From positions 1-28,792 of IMG/VR virus record IMGVR_UViG_3300046373_000050: a stretch of 28,792 bases of DNA. The stretch is one strand, 5' to 3'. A model generated the notes under the pieces. That model was not told the origin of the DNA. It did not search any database and saw only the letters and a list, made by a program, of their open reading frames with translations. This DNA comes from a virus. The number at the start of each line of letters is the position of its first letter. Position 1 is the stretch's first letter. The translations under genes and the position numbers were made by a program. This document shows, one piece after another, positions 21,566 through 28,792 of the stretch.

Positions 21566-21605
21566 CGGCCAGACATAGGTGCAAGCTAGGCGATGGAGAT
21601 ATGTA

Positions 21606-21956
21606 ATGAAAAATGTTCTGGTTATTGGCGCGTTAGTTCTTTTCGCGAACGAAGCCTATGCTGGGTTCTATGAGGGGAAGTCTCTCGTGGAAGGCTTGTC
21701 GGCGTACGAAAAAATCGAAAATGGCAAAGGCGGTCCAATGGATTACATGCTCGCCTCCCAAGCCATTGGGTACGTGAATGGAATTGTGGATCGGGCAGAA
21801 CTCGAGGGGAAGATGTGCACTCCCAATAATTCGACGCAAAAACAATATATGGCAATCGTCCACAAATATGTGAAAGCAAATCCTGAATTGTGGACAATGC
21901 CCGCGTTGCCACTTGTCGATATACCGCTGACACAGGCATTCCCCTGCAAAAAATAA
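21606..21956 (+). CDS. Secreted Rap1a/Tai-family protein, candidate lysogenic gene
   Basis: 116 residues from ATG 21606 (GGAGAT upstream). Signal peptide MKNVLVIGALVLFANEAYA with a cut after AYA. The mature part has EGLSAYEKIENGKGGPMDYM, AIGYVNGIVDRAELEGKMCT, QYMAIVHKYVKANPELWTMP and ends AFPCKK. Two Cys (in KMCTP and FPCKK), the GYVNGIVD helix, the 'V.KYV..NP' segment and the C-terminal FPC are the pattern of the Rap1a/Tai family, known as periplasmic immunity proteins against type VI secretion amidases. It lies 40 bases after the CI-like gene, on the same strand and visibly AT-richer, so it may be expressed in lysogens. No matching toxin is in the window. Confidence 0.75.
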   Translation: MKNVLVIGALVLFANEAYAGFYEGKSLVEGLSAYEKIENGKGGPMDYMLASQAIGYVNGIVDRAELEGKMCTPNNSTQKQYMAIVHKYVKANPELWTMPALPLVDIPLTQAFPCKK

Positions 21957-22581: not shown

Positions 22582-22644
22582 AGCATTTTGCGCTCAGCAA
22601 AAAATAAAAGCAAATTGCTGTTGACCGCATAAAAGCAAATTGCT
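22582..22644. promoter_or_regulatory. Second operator array (OL equivalent)
   Basis: AGCATTTTGCG (22582-22592, weak), AGCAAATTGCT (22609-22619) and AGCAAATTGCT (22634-22644). Centres are 27 and 25 bp apart. The two strong sites are the same dyad as the operators at 20776-20835, and their relation to the -35 and -10 is the same as at the Cro-like promoter. Confidence 0.7.
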
Positions 22645-22649
22645 ATAGT
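22621..22649 (+). promoter_or_regulatory. Promoter of the right-hand early operon (PL equivalent)
   Basis: -35 TTGACC (22621-22626), 17-base spacer, -10 TATAGT (22644-22649). The spacer GCATAAAAGCAAATTGC carries an operator. Transcription should start near 22656, leaving a leader of about 45 bases before the first gene. Confidence 0.75.
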
Positions 22650-22701: not shown

Positions 22702-22896
22702 ATGCTCATTTCCAAAGTCGCTGACCAGCGCTTCATGGTCAGCCCGGACGGCCAGCAGGCCGACTGGATTCACCCGACCGAGATACCGACCCGCGCGCCA
22801 GACTGGACGGACTGCACCGATCTGGACGACACCGCCTTCGAGATCCTGATGCGTGAGCGTCTGGCCTCCAAGCCGCTGCTCTTTGTGGGGGTCTGA
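22702..22896 (+). CDS. First gene of the right-hand early operon, unknown
   Basis: 64 residues: MLISKVADQRFMVSPDGQQA, then DWIHPTEIPTRAPDWTDCTD and LDDTAFEILMRERLASKPLL. Good Shine-Dalgarno TGGAGAACACG. Acidic and short; no N-type arginine-rich motif is visible, so it is not an obvious antiterminator. It is followed by the next gene after two bases. Confidence 0.65.
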   Translation: MLISKVADQRFMVSPDGQQADWIHPTEIPTRAPDWTDCTDLDDTAFEILMRERLASKPLLFVGV

Positions 22897-22898
22897 CC

Positions 22899-23252
22899 AT
22901 GGCACTCCACGACCCGGTCACCTCCGACGAGAGGCGCGCCGAGAAGCTGGCGGACCTCACCCAGGAAGCCGCCGACTCGATCACCCAGGCGCTGGCCGCC
23001 GGCCTGCCGAAGACGATGCAGATCATCGACGAAGCCCTGGGCGAGTTCATGCAGGACGACCAGGCGCGCGCCGAGCTGCTGCGCAAGACCGCCGCCGGCG
23101 GGAACCCGTTCACGAAGGTGTTGGCCGACCTGGTCTGGCACGAGGCCGAAGCGCGCGCCGAGCAGGAGCTGCAGCGCCTCGAGCGCGAGGGCCGCGACGC
23201 CGACAACGAAGCACGCATCGACCTGGCGATTTGGCACCGCGAACCAGCCTGA
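22899..23252 (+). CDS. Helical early phage protein, unknown
   Basis: 117 residues, mostly helix: MALHDPVTSDERRAEKLADL, TQEAADSITQALAAGLPKTM, DEALGEFMQDDQARAELLRK and EAEARAEQELQRLEREGRDA. Its start is two bases after the previous stop, with GGGGG upstream as ribosome site. It is the last gene before the 374-bp gap. No family was recognised. Confidence 0.65.
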   Translation: MALHDPVTSDERRAEKLADLTQEAADSITQALAAGLPKTMQIIDEALGEFMQDDQARAELLRKTAAGGNPFTKVLADLVWHEAEARAEQELQRLEREGRDADNEARIDLAIWHREPA

Positions 23253-23626
23253 CCGATTTGCCGAAGCGGCGCACCTCGGAACACAACGTGCGCTTTGCCC
23301 TGAATCTCGGGTCAGGAAATAGAGGGAGTGGGATCTCGAATGCCCTGGCAGCTTGGAACAGACAGGCACCACACAGGAGCTCATTGATGCCAGCGCGACT
23401 GGGCTGGCGATGGATAAGCACCGACGCCCAGTGGGCTCCTGTGTGGTATCGGCGGCGCCGCCAAGCGCCTGCACCGCTGACTGATGTACCGGAGGCCTGC
23501 TGGCCACCACACGCTAGCCTGATTGCGCATAGGCCTGCGACGGGTGCAGTTAGAACCCGCGATCCGGTGAAAGGCCGGGACCAACAACGAAGCCGGCCGC
23601 GCCGGCGCCAACGACAGGAGAGATGG
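23253..23626 (+). other. 374-bp gap without a supported gene
   Basis: The only gap over 300 bp. It holds a strong plus-strand hairpin (see next entry). A frame in phase with the next gene is open through it and has an ATG at 23387, but the reading (Arg-rich, Trp-rich) looks non-coding. I see no tRNA, promoter or terminator with a T tract. Confidence 0.55.
23368..23447 (+). ncRNA. Long hairpin, possible structured RNA
   Basis: ACCACACAGGAGCTCATTG (23368-23386) pairs with CAGTGGGCTCCTGTGTGGT (23429-23447): 19 pairs on the plus-strand RNA, 17 Watson-Crick and two G·U. The same positions would be A·C mismatches on the minus strand, which points to a plus-strand RNA. The 42-base loop holds a second stem (GCCAGC / GCTGGC, 23389-23394 and 23403-23408). 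The left arm contains AGGAG of a possible ribosome site for ATG 23387, so the arm would hide it. It is inside an early operon. Could be an antisense-like or regulatory RNA or a processing site; no family was recognised. Confidence 0.45.
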
Positions 23627-24322
23627 ATGAGCAGCAGCGCCCAGGAGCCGATCGAGATCATCGACGTGATCCTCCATTACAACGCCATCAGCAAGAATCC
23701 CCAAGTGATGGTGGTCATCGACCGCATGCCAGAGTTCATCTATGCCCAGGAGGGTAAGCAGTTGATGGCCAACGACAGCGGCTTCTATGACCTGCTGTAC
23801 ATCGATGGCGGGACCGATGCATTCGCCGGCCGCAAGTTCGACATCAAGCTGCAGGACGGCACGGCGCTGCATTGCCATGGTCAGGTCTGGTCCGGCACCG
23901 TCACCCCGAACCCGGCCATGGTGCGGGACATGGAGGCGGTCAAACAGGTTGGCATCAACACGATCGAGGGGCTGAAGAAGTGCCACGTGTATTGCGCTGG
24001 CTTGGTATCGCTTGCGAAGCTGAACGACTGGCTGGCGCGCAATCAGCCGTCGTACGACTACGACAAGTACGACCCAGGCTGCACTCTGGCCTATCAGGAC
24101 GAGCTCTATCGCAAATACCCGGATATGGACCGGCCGGTCTGCGCGAAGCGGGCGCGCCGGCTTCGCCAGCGCGGCGTGACAATCCGCCGCCACGCAGGCA
24201 CCGGGGCGCATGGCTGGTCCCCGAGCTACGAGCGCAAGAAGGCTGAAATAAAGCAGCGCATGTCGCCCGATTACAAAGGCCGCTTCCACCCCGACGTGCT
24301 CGCCGCTCGAGGTGCAGCATGA
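23627..24322 (+). CDS. Early phage protein, unknown
   Basis: 231 residues from ATG 23627, preceded by GACAGGAGAGATGG. MSSSAQEPIEIIDVILHYNA, then AISKNPQVMVVIDRMPEFIY, YDLLYIDGGTDAFAGRKFDI and KLQDGTALHCHGQVWSGTVT, a strand-rich N-terminal half (residues 5-95), then a helical part with KKCHVYCAGLVSLAKLNDWL and a basic C-terminus (RKKAEIKQRMSPDYKGRFHP). Cys and His are present (CHGQ, KCHVYC, PGC) but no known motif is formed. In-frame starts further upstream in the gap are rejected. The next gene begins in an ATGA overlap. Confidence 0.65.
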   Translation: MSSSAQEPIEIIDVILHYNAISKNPQVMVVIDRMPEFIYAQEGKQLMANDSGFYDLLYIDGGTDAFAGRKFDIKLQDGTALHCHGQVWSGTVTPNPAMVRDMEAVKQVGINTIEGLKKCHVYCAGLVSLAKLNDWLARNQPSYDYDKYDPGCTLAYQDELYRKYPDMDRPVCAKRARRLRQRGVTIRRHAGTGAHGWSPSYERKKAEIKQRMSPDYKGRFHPDVLAARGAA

Positions 24323-24531
24323 CCGCCGCCGCCATCCGCGTCCCGCGCCGCCTGGTGCGCAAGCTGCTCAAGCCGGCGCTGCTCTGGCTGAACGCCCACC
24401 GCTACAAGCACTCGGAGAACGAAGTCTACCGCCTGACCGTAACTGCTGAATCGCTGCGCCGCGCCGCCGGCCGCGAGTCCATCCACCAGGTGAAGCTGCA
24501 GGAGCAGCGCCGCCGGATCGGAGGCTGGTAA
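24319..24531 (+). CDS. Small basic phage protein, unknown
   Basis: 70 residues: MTAAAIRVPRRLVRKLLKPA, LLWLNAHRYKHSENEVYRLT then VTAESLRRAAGRESIHQVKL. Strongly basic and amphipathic. ATGA overlap with the gene before it and TAATG overlap with the next one, so all three are coupled. No family was recognised. Confidence 0.6.
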   Translation: MTAAAIRVPRRLVRKLLKPALLWLNAHRYKHSENEVYRLTVTAESLRRAAGRESIHQVKLQEQRRRIGGW

Positions 24532-28215: not shown

Positions 28216-28413
28216 ATGAAACGCGACCTCCTGACGATGGCGCTCGATCTGGGCAACGAGCTCATCATCGACAACTTCGCCGGTGGCGGCGGAACGAGCA
28301 CCGGTCTTGAGGCCGCGTTCGGCCGCCCGGTCGACATCGCCATCAACCACGACCCGGAAGCGCTGGCTATGCACGCCATCAACCACCCGCACACGAAGCA
28401 CCTGTGTGAGTCA
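28216..28413 (+). pseudogene. Truncated C5-cytosine DNA methyltransferase (N-terminal ~65 codons)
   Basis: MKRDLLTMALDLGNELIIDN, FAGGGGTSTGLEAAFGRPVD then IAINHDPEALAMHAINHPHT and KHLCES are the start of a phage cytosine methyltransferase: FAGGGGTSTGLE is motif I (AdoMet binding), and INHDPEALAMH.INHP is motif II. In intact members the sequence goes on toward a PC or PDC catalytic motif; here it changes after CES (28405-28413) and none is found. The frame stays open to the window end, but those codons lie antisense to a better gene. So the enzyme is cut at a DNA junction and should be inactive. It is the last gene of the early operon. Confidence 0.7.
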
Positions 28414-28792
28414 AGCAGAACGAGCCGGCTCATCGAATGGTCGACCCAGTGCGTTCATCAGATTGGTGGCTTGCGCGATGGCCGTTTCACAGTTGAGGCG
28501 GATTACCGCTGTGTCAAATGGGACCCCTTGCGGAATAGCGCTTCCAAAACTGTCCAGATGAGCGCTCGCCCGCTCAATAGCTTTGTTGAGATGTCCCATG
28601 CTTATTTGAAGCCCTACCAGATTCTCCAAAGCTTCATAAGTGCCGACCTCGTGGATTGGTATAGCGTTAAGCGCCGCTATCAAACTTTCCCGCTTCTTAT
28701 CAAGTTGTGCGAGAAAGAATTGCAGACTGCTGAAACCTCCCTCTGGGAAAATCGCCAGGGTAACTTCGCAATGCTCTTTTGCGGACCTTGCG
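28411..28792 (-). CDS. Partial gene at right edge, unknown, AT-richer
   Basis: The frame is open from the window end (no start seen there) to TGA at 28411-28413, about 126 codons. It reads ...GGFSSLQFFLAQLDKKRESL then IAALNAIPIHEVGTYEALEN, LVGLQISMGHLNKAIERASA, HLDSFGSAIPQGVPFDTAVI and ends NALGRPFDEPARSA. Mostly helical and believable as a protein, unlike the opposite strand. A TTG at 28681-28683 is an internal codon rather than a convincing start. Composition is visibly AT-richer than the phage genes. It ends exactly at the break of the methyltransferase, so it is probably host DNA or an inserted gene. No family was recognised. Confidence 0.5.
   Translation of the reverse strand, partial: ARSAKEHCEVTLAIFPEGGFSSLQFFLAQLDKKRESLIAALNAIPIHEVGTYEALENLVGLQISMGHLNKAIERASAHLDSFGSAIPQGVPFDTAVIRLNCETAIAQATNLMNALGRPFDEPARSA

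Follow-up and report, generated by a model that had tools for sequence, protein, structure and literature searches.

The stretch of DNA analysed here, referred to below as the window, is the 28,792-base IMG/VR virus record IMGVR_UViG_3300046373_000050. It includes a rightward early module, in which several small genes are followed by a gene for a 117-aa protein (22899..23252), a gap, an accessory gene of the phrog_26990 family (23627..24322), a gene for a 70-aa basic protein (RVPRRLVRKLLKP; 24319..24531), RecT and a RecE-like exonuclease, the features of this module and of its gap being on the plus strand. The gap between 23252 and 23627 (374 nt) is real, just as the sequence-only reading of this DNA had it when it singled out a long gap in an otherwise packed operon. 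In the window alone, the reading frame of the gene behind the gap runs open through it (ORF 22853-24322); however, in relatives this sequence is replaced wholesale or deleted, and hence we rule out the gap as coding sequence. Upstream lies a promoter-like site, TTGACC-17-TATAGT with a TG before the second hexamer (22621..22649), recognised by consensus match only (10/12 positions); such matching yields three sites against 1.1 expected by chance. An early operon behind this site would transcribe the gap as part of its message. Pfam and PHROG searches gave no match for the 117-aa protein, at the 3' end of whose gene the RNA described below begins, or for the 70-aa protein, which is a possible RNA-binding partner encoded near the RNA in many relatives. 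The phrog_26990 gene is replaced by other genes, or by none, in relatives.

Relatives of the region were drawn from five contigs (L004-L008) reached via the 117-aa protein, the homologue of which precedes the RNA in each of them, and from further records recovered by DNA-pattern scans of IMG/VR. Three of the contigs (L005, L006 and L007) share with the window the gap sequence on either side of a central hairpin, the hairpin itself being different, and two (L004 and L008) are missing most of the gap sequence. A 104-position covariance model, R1, built from the 104-nt left part of the gap (23265..23369), finds 35 records at E<1e-12 and describes a scaffold of four hairpins, H1-H4. H1 (23269..23293; stem 23269-23274/23288-23293) displays both-side changes at all six of its pairs with 99% of cells paired. 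H2 (23297..23312; stem 23297-23300/23309-23312) is nearly invariant, with one of its four pairs varying. H3 (23323..23346) comprises two nested helices (23323-23326/23343-23346 and 23329-23332/23335-23338) with 92% of cells paired and no double changes, and is the least certain helix of the scaffold. Finally, H4 (23351..23367) has a GC-rich stem and a GAA-C-AGA loop, which takes the form GAA-AGA or GAA-GT-AGA in relatives, and directly abuts the variable element that follows. The loops of the scaffold include invariant ones.

The model-fitted R1 alignment has 34 distinct rows, in which pairing holds in 96.6% of cells and 9 of the 23 pairs show both-side changes; the double-change cells number 37 as against 7.8 in shuffles, with none of 500 shuffles as high, in an alignment that is by its making biased towards structure. 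A MAFFT alignment of 17 rows gives a result of the same kind (11 double-change cells against 3.2). Most of this covariation is carried by H1, and the cell counts are inflated by sequences related by descent. Most of the records are metagenomic fragments.

The element abutting H4 is the hairpin to which the sequence-only reading had drawn attention. Its coordinates (23368..23447) proved exact: the arms (23368-23386/23429-23447) form 19 bp, of which 17 are Watson-Crick and two G·U, with no A·C when read on the plus strand. The second stem that had been placed in its loop is likewise there, as an inner GCCAGC/GCTGGC hairpin (23389..23408; stem 23389-23394/23403-23408), for which a homologue search found none. 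Folding better than shuffled sequence, which had been offered as a check, is seen for a 100-nt stretch with the hairpin (z -3.82; 1 of 200 shuffles as good) and for the 80-nt element alone (z -5.47), whereas the whole 374-nt gap reaches only z -2.26; the signal thus rests on the stem and the comparative evidence, not on the overall energy of the gap. An AGGAG in the arm (23375-23379) with an ATG following at 23387 is present as described, but neither is conserved among relatives, where unrelated heads replace the hairpin or the hairpin is absent; we therefore reject a translational switch working by way of this motif, a translational switch being one of the functions that had been proposed. 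What had been missed is that the hairpin forms an exchangeable head ('cargo') of a larger conserved RNA, which begins about 100 nt further upstream.

This head is followed by further structured modules (23448..23583), with an ACCACAC word at 23506-23512 that directly repeats the first bases of the head's 5' arm, and a CGGGT/ACCCG stem that reads CGAGC/GCTCG in relatives, and then by a common leader (23584..23626) with a GCCGGC hairpin and the ribosome binding site ahead of the next gene. A general bistable switch via the downstream ACCACAC word was considered and rejected, being convincing in few records only. We also noted, at L074:2000-2700, a long array of structured modules that has no R1 scaffold and includes a T-loop-like hairpin, CACGG-TGCGAAT-CCGTG.

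In those records that have a head, it starts at the base right after H4, and this same slot houses unrelated sequences in different relatives, typically closed by a stem of ~15 bp, which we term the clamp. A comparison of 19 records, from which class D (see below) was excluded, yields 15 different closing stems of 15 bp with 97.8% of cells paired; their double-change cells number 45, as against a mean of 10.5 and a maximum of 26 when whole 3' arms are swapped between records. Little changes over the first six pairs (ACCACA or ACTACA), and the remaining pairs vary freely. Taken with the scaffold alignments, these comparisons show that selection maintains a structured RNA whose scaffold and clamp are conserved and whose heads can be exchanged. 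On their own, the head interiors for the most part have no folding advantage over shuffled sequence (mean z about -0.7), and six records (L029, L034, L035, L047, L064 and L086) have the scaffold with no head at all. The heads fall into loose classes: tRNA-like (class A: L030, L040, L043, L053 and L091); a GCTGG-nGTAGCGn-CCAGC-type hairpin (class B: L006, L012, L045, L083 and L085); those with TGCGCAGGCTGATGCGCA and GCCGGAGATCAGCACCGGC (class C: L054, L080 and L082); a CCGATAAG hairpin with a pseudoknot domain, the closing stem of which is shorter and comes after a mismatch (class D: L015, L028, L031, L048 and L049); class F (L023, L046, L051 and L056); and unclassed heads (the window, L005, L007 and L025/L044).

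A minority of the heads seen are tRNA-like. Against the Rfam tRNA model (RF00005, cut-off 29 bits), the L091/G437 head scores 55.9 bits, that of L053 41.7 bits and that of L043, with an Asn-like loop CTGTTAA and a large insertion, 38.1 bits; ARAGORN folds the L091 head into a tRNA whose anticodon is GCA and whose variable arm is long. By eye, T-arm motifs are apparent in L030, L040 and L080 and acceptor motifs in L030 and L040; however, the tRNA model gave no match on the L030 and L040 heads, and hence these two are suggestive only. T and D arms of the tRNA type are kept, and the 7-bp acceptor stem runs on into an 8-bp clamp; accordingly, no free CCA acceptor end was found in these heads, their acceptor strands running into the clamp. 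Judged by eye, some anticodon loops appear shortened, a feature that does not hold generally, the loop of L091 having the usual 7 nt. Scans with ARAGORN at relaxed settings added no information. No likeness to tRNA can be recognised in the head of the window itself: a search of the window with RF00005 gave nothing at E<=1, ARAGORN finds no tRNA there and no Rfam 15 family reaches its gathering score. Elsewhere in the record of L040 there is an ordinary tRNA-Asn (GTT) gene (L095:139-214), which may serve as an attachment site or be a phage tRNA.

The class-D module extends well beyond this group, its core recovering 63 stretches in a scan of IMG/VR. Across 46 aligned sequences, each of the six pairs of one helix shows both-side changes (93 double-change cells against 25.9); a second, crossing helix is invariant over four pairs, and at the pair flanking it all 46 of the 46 distinct cases are Watson-Crick, four types of pair being represented, as against 63% pairing in shuffles. 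Therefore, the module is very probably a pseudoknot; it overlaps no Rfam family at the gathering threshold in the sources scanned. Its core, GACTGGATGRC..CTTCAAGACGGTC..TAAATGTC (e.g., L099:9812-9873), shows strong covariation and is widespread in phages (L015, L024, L028, L032, L049, L092, L096-L150 and L155), where it often adjoins phage tRNA genes. A tRNA match over the cut-off is present in 20 of the 46 class-D records, a figure taken for the class-D records alone. One phage record carrying the module also has a match to the Rfam RT-15 RNA (L105:8068-8249).

Related sequence is found in phage mEp390, in Klebsiella and Salmonella phages, in DIBBI, RiverRider and the Pantoea phage PSKM, and in E. 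coli prophages. In mEp390 (L151:2147-2929), Klebsiella phage P7641 (L154:2018-2721) and the E. coli 21AR0133 prophage (L155:2193-3226), the array fills an unannotated or misannotated, RNA-rich gap of 0.7-1 kb behind the repressor gene, the gene in P7641 being annotated as hypothetical and read as a repressor by its position. The annotation of mEp390 places a hypothetical ORF, mEp390_036, on top of the array. The RiverRider array sits in a tRNA cluster and that of DIBBI in a gap that looks tRNA-rich; in the latter (Xanthomonas phage DIBBI, L152:1500-2402) apparently unannotated tRNA genes can be made out by eye amid the structured modules. The enterobacterial arrays have an H4-type hairpin followed at once by a stem starting ACACAAC, of about 22 positions with a few mismatches. 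Over all loci, a long stem directly follows an H4-like hairpin in 33 of 80, judged at the level that 1% of random sites reach; the independent cases are fewer than 33 because some are duplicate contigs and most come from the window's own group.

Comparison of the leader by DNA similarity with named phage and plasmid collections found nothing, and in 399 genomes of the order of an Azoarcus MAG, a sample that may exclude the host, it gave one weak match that on inspection was due to chance. In the open-access literature we found no description of the RNA, and it has no Rfam match, the tRNA-like heads aside. It is, as judged from these sequence comparisons, a conserved and unrecorded phage RNA.

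What might such an RNA do? That the element instead acts as a DNA-level palindrome, in protein binding or replication, is very improbable. A perfect inverted repeat is of course a DNA palindrome as well, and strand bias alone is undecisive since the G·U and A·C cells over the 15 stems are equal (three and three); however, G·U pairs occur among the H1 covariation, all three A·C cells are confined to the acceptor stems of tRNA-like heads, the tRNA model matches the heads on the operon strand, and arms differing in sequence would not preserve a protein site. The functional plus-strand RNA envisaged by the sequence-only reading is strongly supported by covariation in relatives. A recombination hot spot, at which ACCACAC repeats and stems allow the exchange of accessory RNAs or genes with the heads as passengers, would suit the mosaic heads, the varying accessory genes nearby and L064, which resembles a deletion between ACCACAC repeats, but it leaves the covariation of clamp and scaffold unexplained, and we regard it as quite improbable. 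A cis-regulatory leader, attenuator or put-like antiterminator for the downstream genes, perhaps bound by the 70-aa basic protein, is also improbable, if less so. The position of the RNA ~600 nt behind the promoter-like site in an early operon, the presence of that protein nearby in many records and the invariant scaffold loops speak for it; yet the downstream genes differ among relatives, AGGAG/ATG is not conserved, and the pairing of the 3' arm with the downstream ACCACAC word is strong in few records only.

The main rival, which fits many facts and is unlikely without being far-fetched, is processing or insulation: RNase III would cut the ~15-19 bp stem, or the stem would block exonucleases, separating or stabilising segments of the early mRNA, with tRNA-like heads being cut by tRNA-processing enzymes. 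Here the content of the head matters little, and therefore heads would drift and capture tRNA genes. Consistent with this, a long, near-perfect stem of a length compatible with RNase III occupies a fixed place between cistrons, the head interiors fold no better than shuffles, the genes downstream are accessory and variable, and no intrinsic terminator (a GC stem with a U run) was found in the gap on the plus strand. However, the very high sequence conservation of H1-H4 exceeds the needs of a nuclease site, T and D arms of the tRNA type are retained, and some records have the scaffold with no stem at all.

We tentatively favour, while giving it somewhat less than an even chance, a phage RNA scaffold that displays hypervariable heads and acts in trans, as a mimic or decoy of host RNAs and above all of tRNA; the expression, release and function of the RNA we infer from its sequence. 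Briefly, a structured RNA would be co-transcribed within the early operon, its H1-H4 scaffold terminating in a clamp helix on which an exchangeable head is presented. Stable heads might then act in trans in early infection by mimicking or decoying host RNAs, tying up host factors that act on tRNA (e.g., defence nucleases), and their turnover would reflect differing hosts and defences. This decoy reading is suggested by the tRNA-likeness and variety of the heads, the association with tRNA clusters and the precedent of phage tRNAs that counteract tRNA-cleaving defences (PMC11555353), tRNA being a common target of defence (PMC12409363). The covariation of scaffold and clamp, the same layout in other phages and the related modules inside tRNA clusters also favour it; against it stand the window head that is no tRNA match, interiors that for the most part fold no better than shuffled sequence and the minority status of the tRNA-like heads. 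With yet more reserve, we suggest that beta- and gammaproteobacterial phages may share a widespread unrecorded system of this kind, in which a scaffold with GAA..AGA hairpins and clamped heads, including tRNA mimics, provides trans-acting decoys in an arms race with RNA-targeting defences. If true, it would be an RNA counterpart of the accessory-gene hot spots of phages, with one slot and many heads, some of them tRNA look-alikes. It would also offer a defined locus at which to ask whether mimic RNAs serve phages against immunity that targets tRNA, and account for unannotated gaps in known phages (mEp390 and Klebsiella P7641) and some E. coli prophages.

The RNA bears partial likenesses to several known systems. 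Bacterial Y RNAs (YrlA) are closed by a stem, and their effector part can be tRNA-like. The phage RNA is likewise stem-closed with a tRNA-like part possible, but its match to YrlA (RF02553) reaches 14.3 bits against a cut-off of 69, and a TROVE/Ro protein (PF05731), the partner of such RNAs, is absent from the same element in all 23 records, on which ground we reject a Ro-Y RNA. In retron msr-msd RNAs a conserved part precedes a long hairpin that varies, as is the case in the phage RNA; the difference is that no reverse transcriptase (PF00078) occurs in the same element in any of 23 records, many of them fragments, and on this absence we reject a retron or DGR RNA. The put antitermination RNAs of phage HK022 are hairpins in the phage early transcript, a likeness the predicted early transcript here would share, but the phage RNA is not near the promoter start. 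GOLLD and ROOL are large structured RNAs of mobile elements. In contrast to these ornate RNAs (PMC12286853), the phage RNA is shorter and modular, with exchangeable heads and no Rfam match. Phage counter-defence tRNA clusters (e.g., the T5 tRNA-Tyr against retron-Eco7; PMC11555353) are alike in consisting of phage-borne tRNA or tRNA-like RNA, with related modules inside such clusters; they differ in comprising working tRNAs, whereas here the tRNA-like part is clamped with no CCA and most heads are not tRNA-like. The phage tRNAs described in the literature achieve rescue by functioning as tRNAs, a role that clamped heads would not easily fill.

Elsewhere in the window, a DNA methyltransferase gene (28216-28792) has a family match covering its first ~65 aa, nothing searched matching the remainder of its frame, which runs from about 28411 to where the record ends, and a Rap1a-immunity-like gene (21579-21956; Pfam PF18602) adjoins the repressor.
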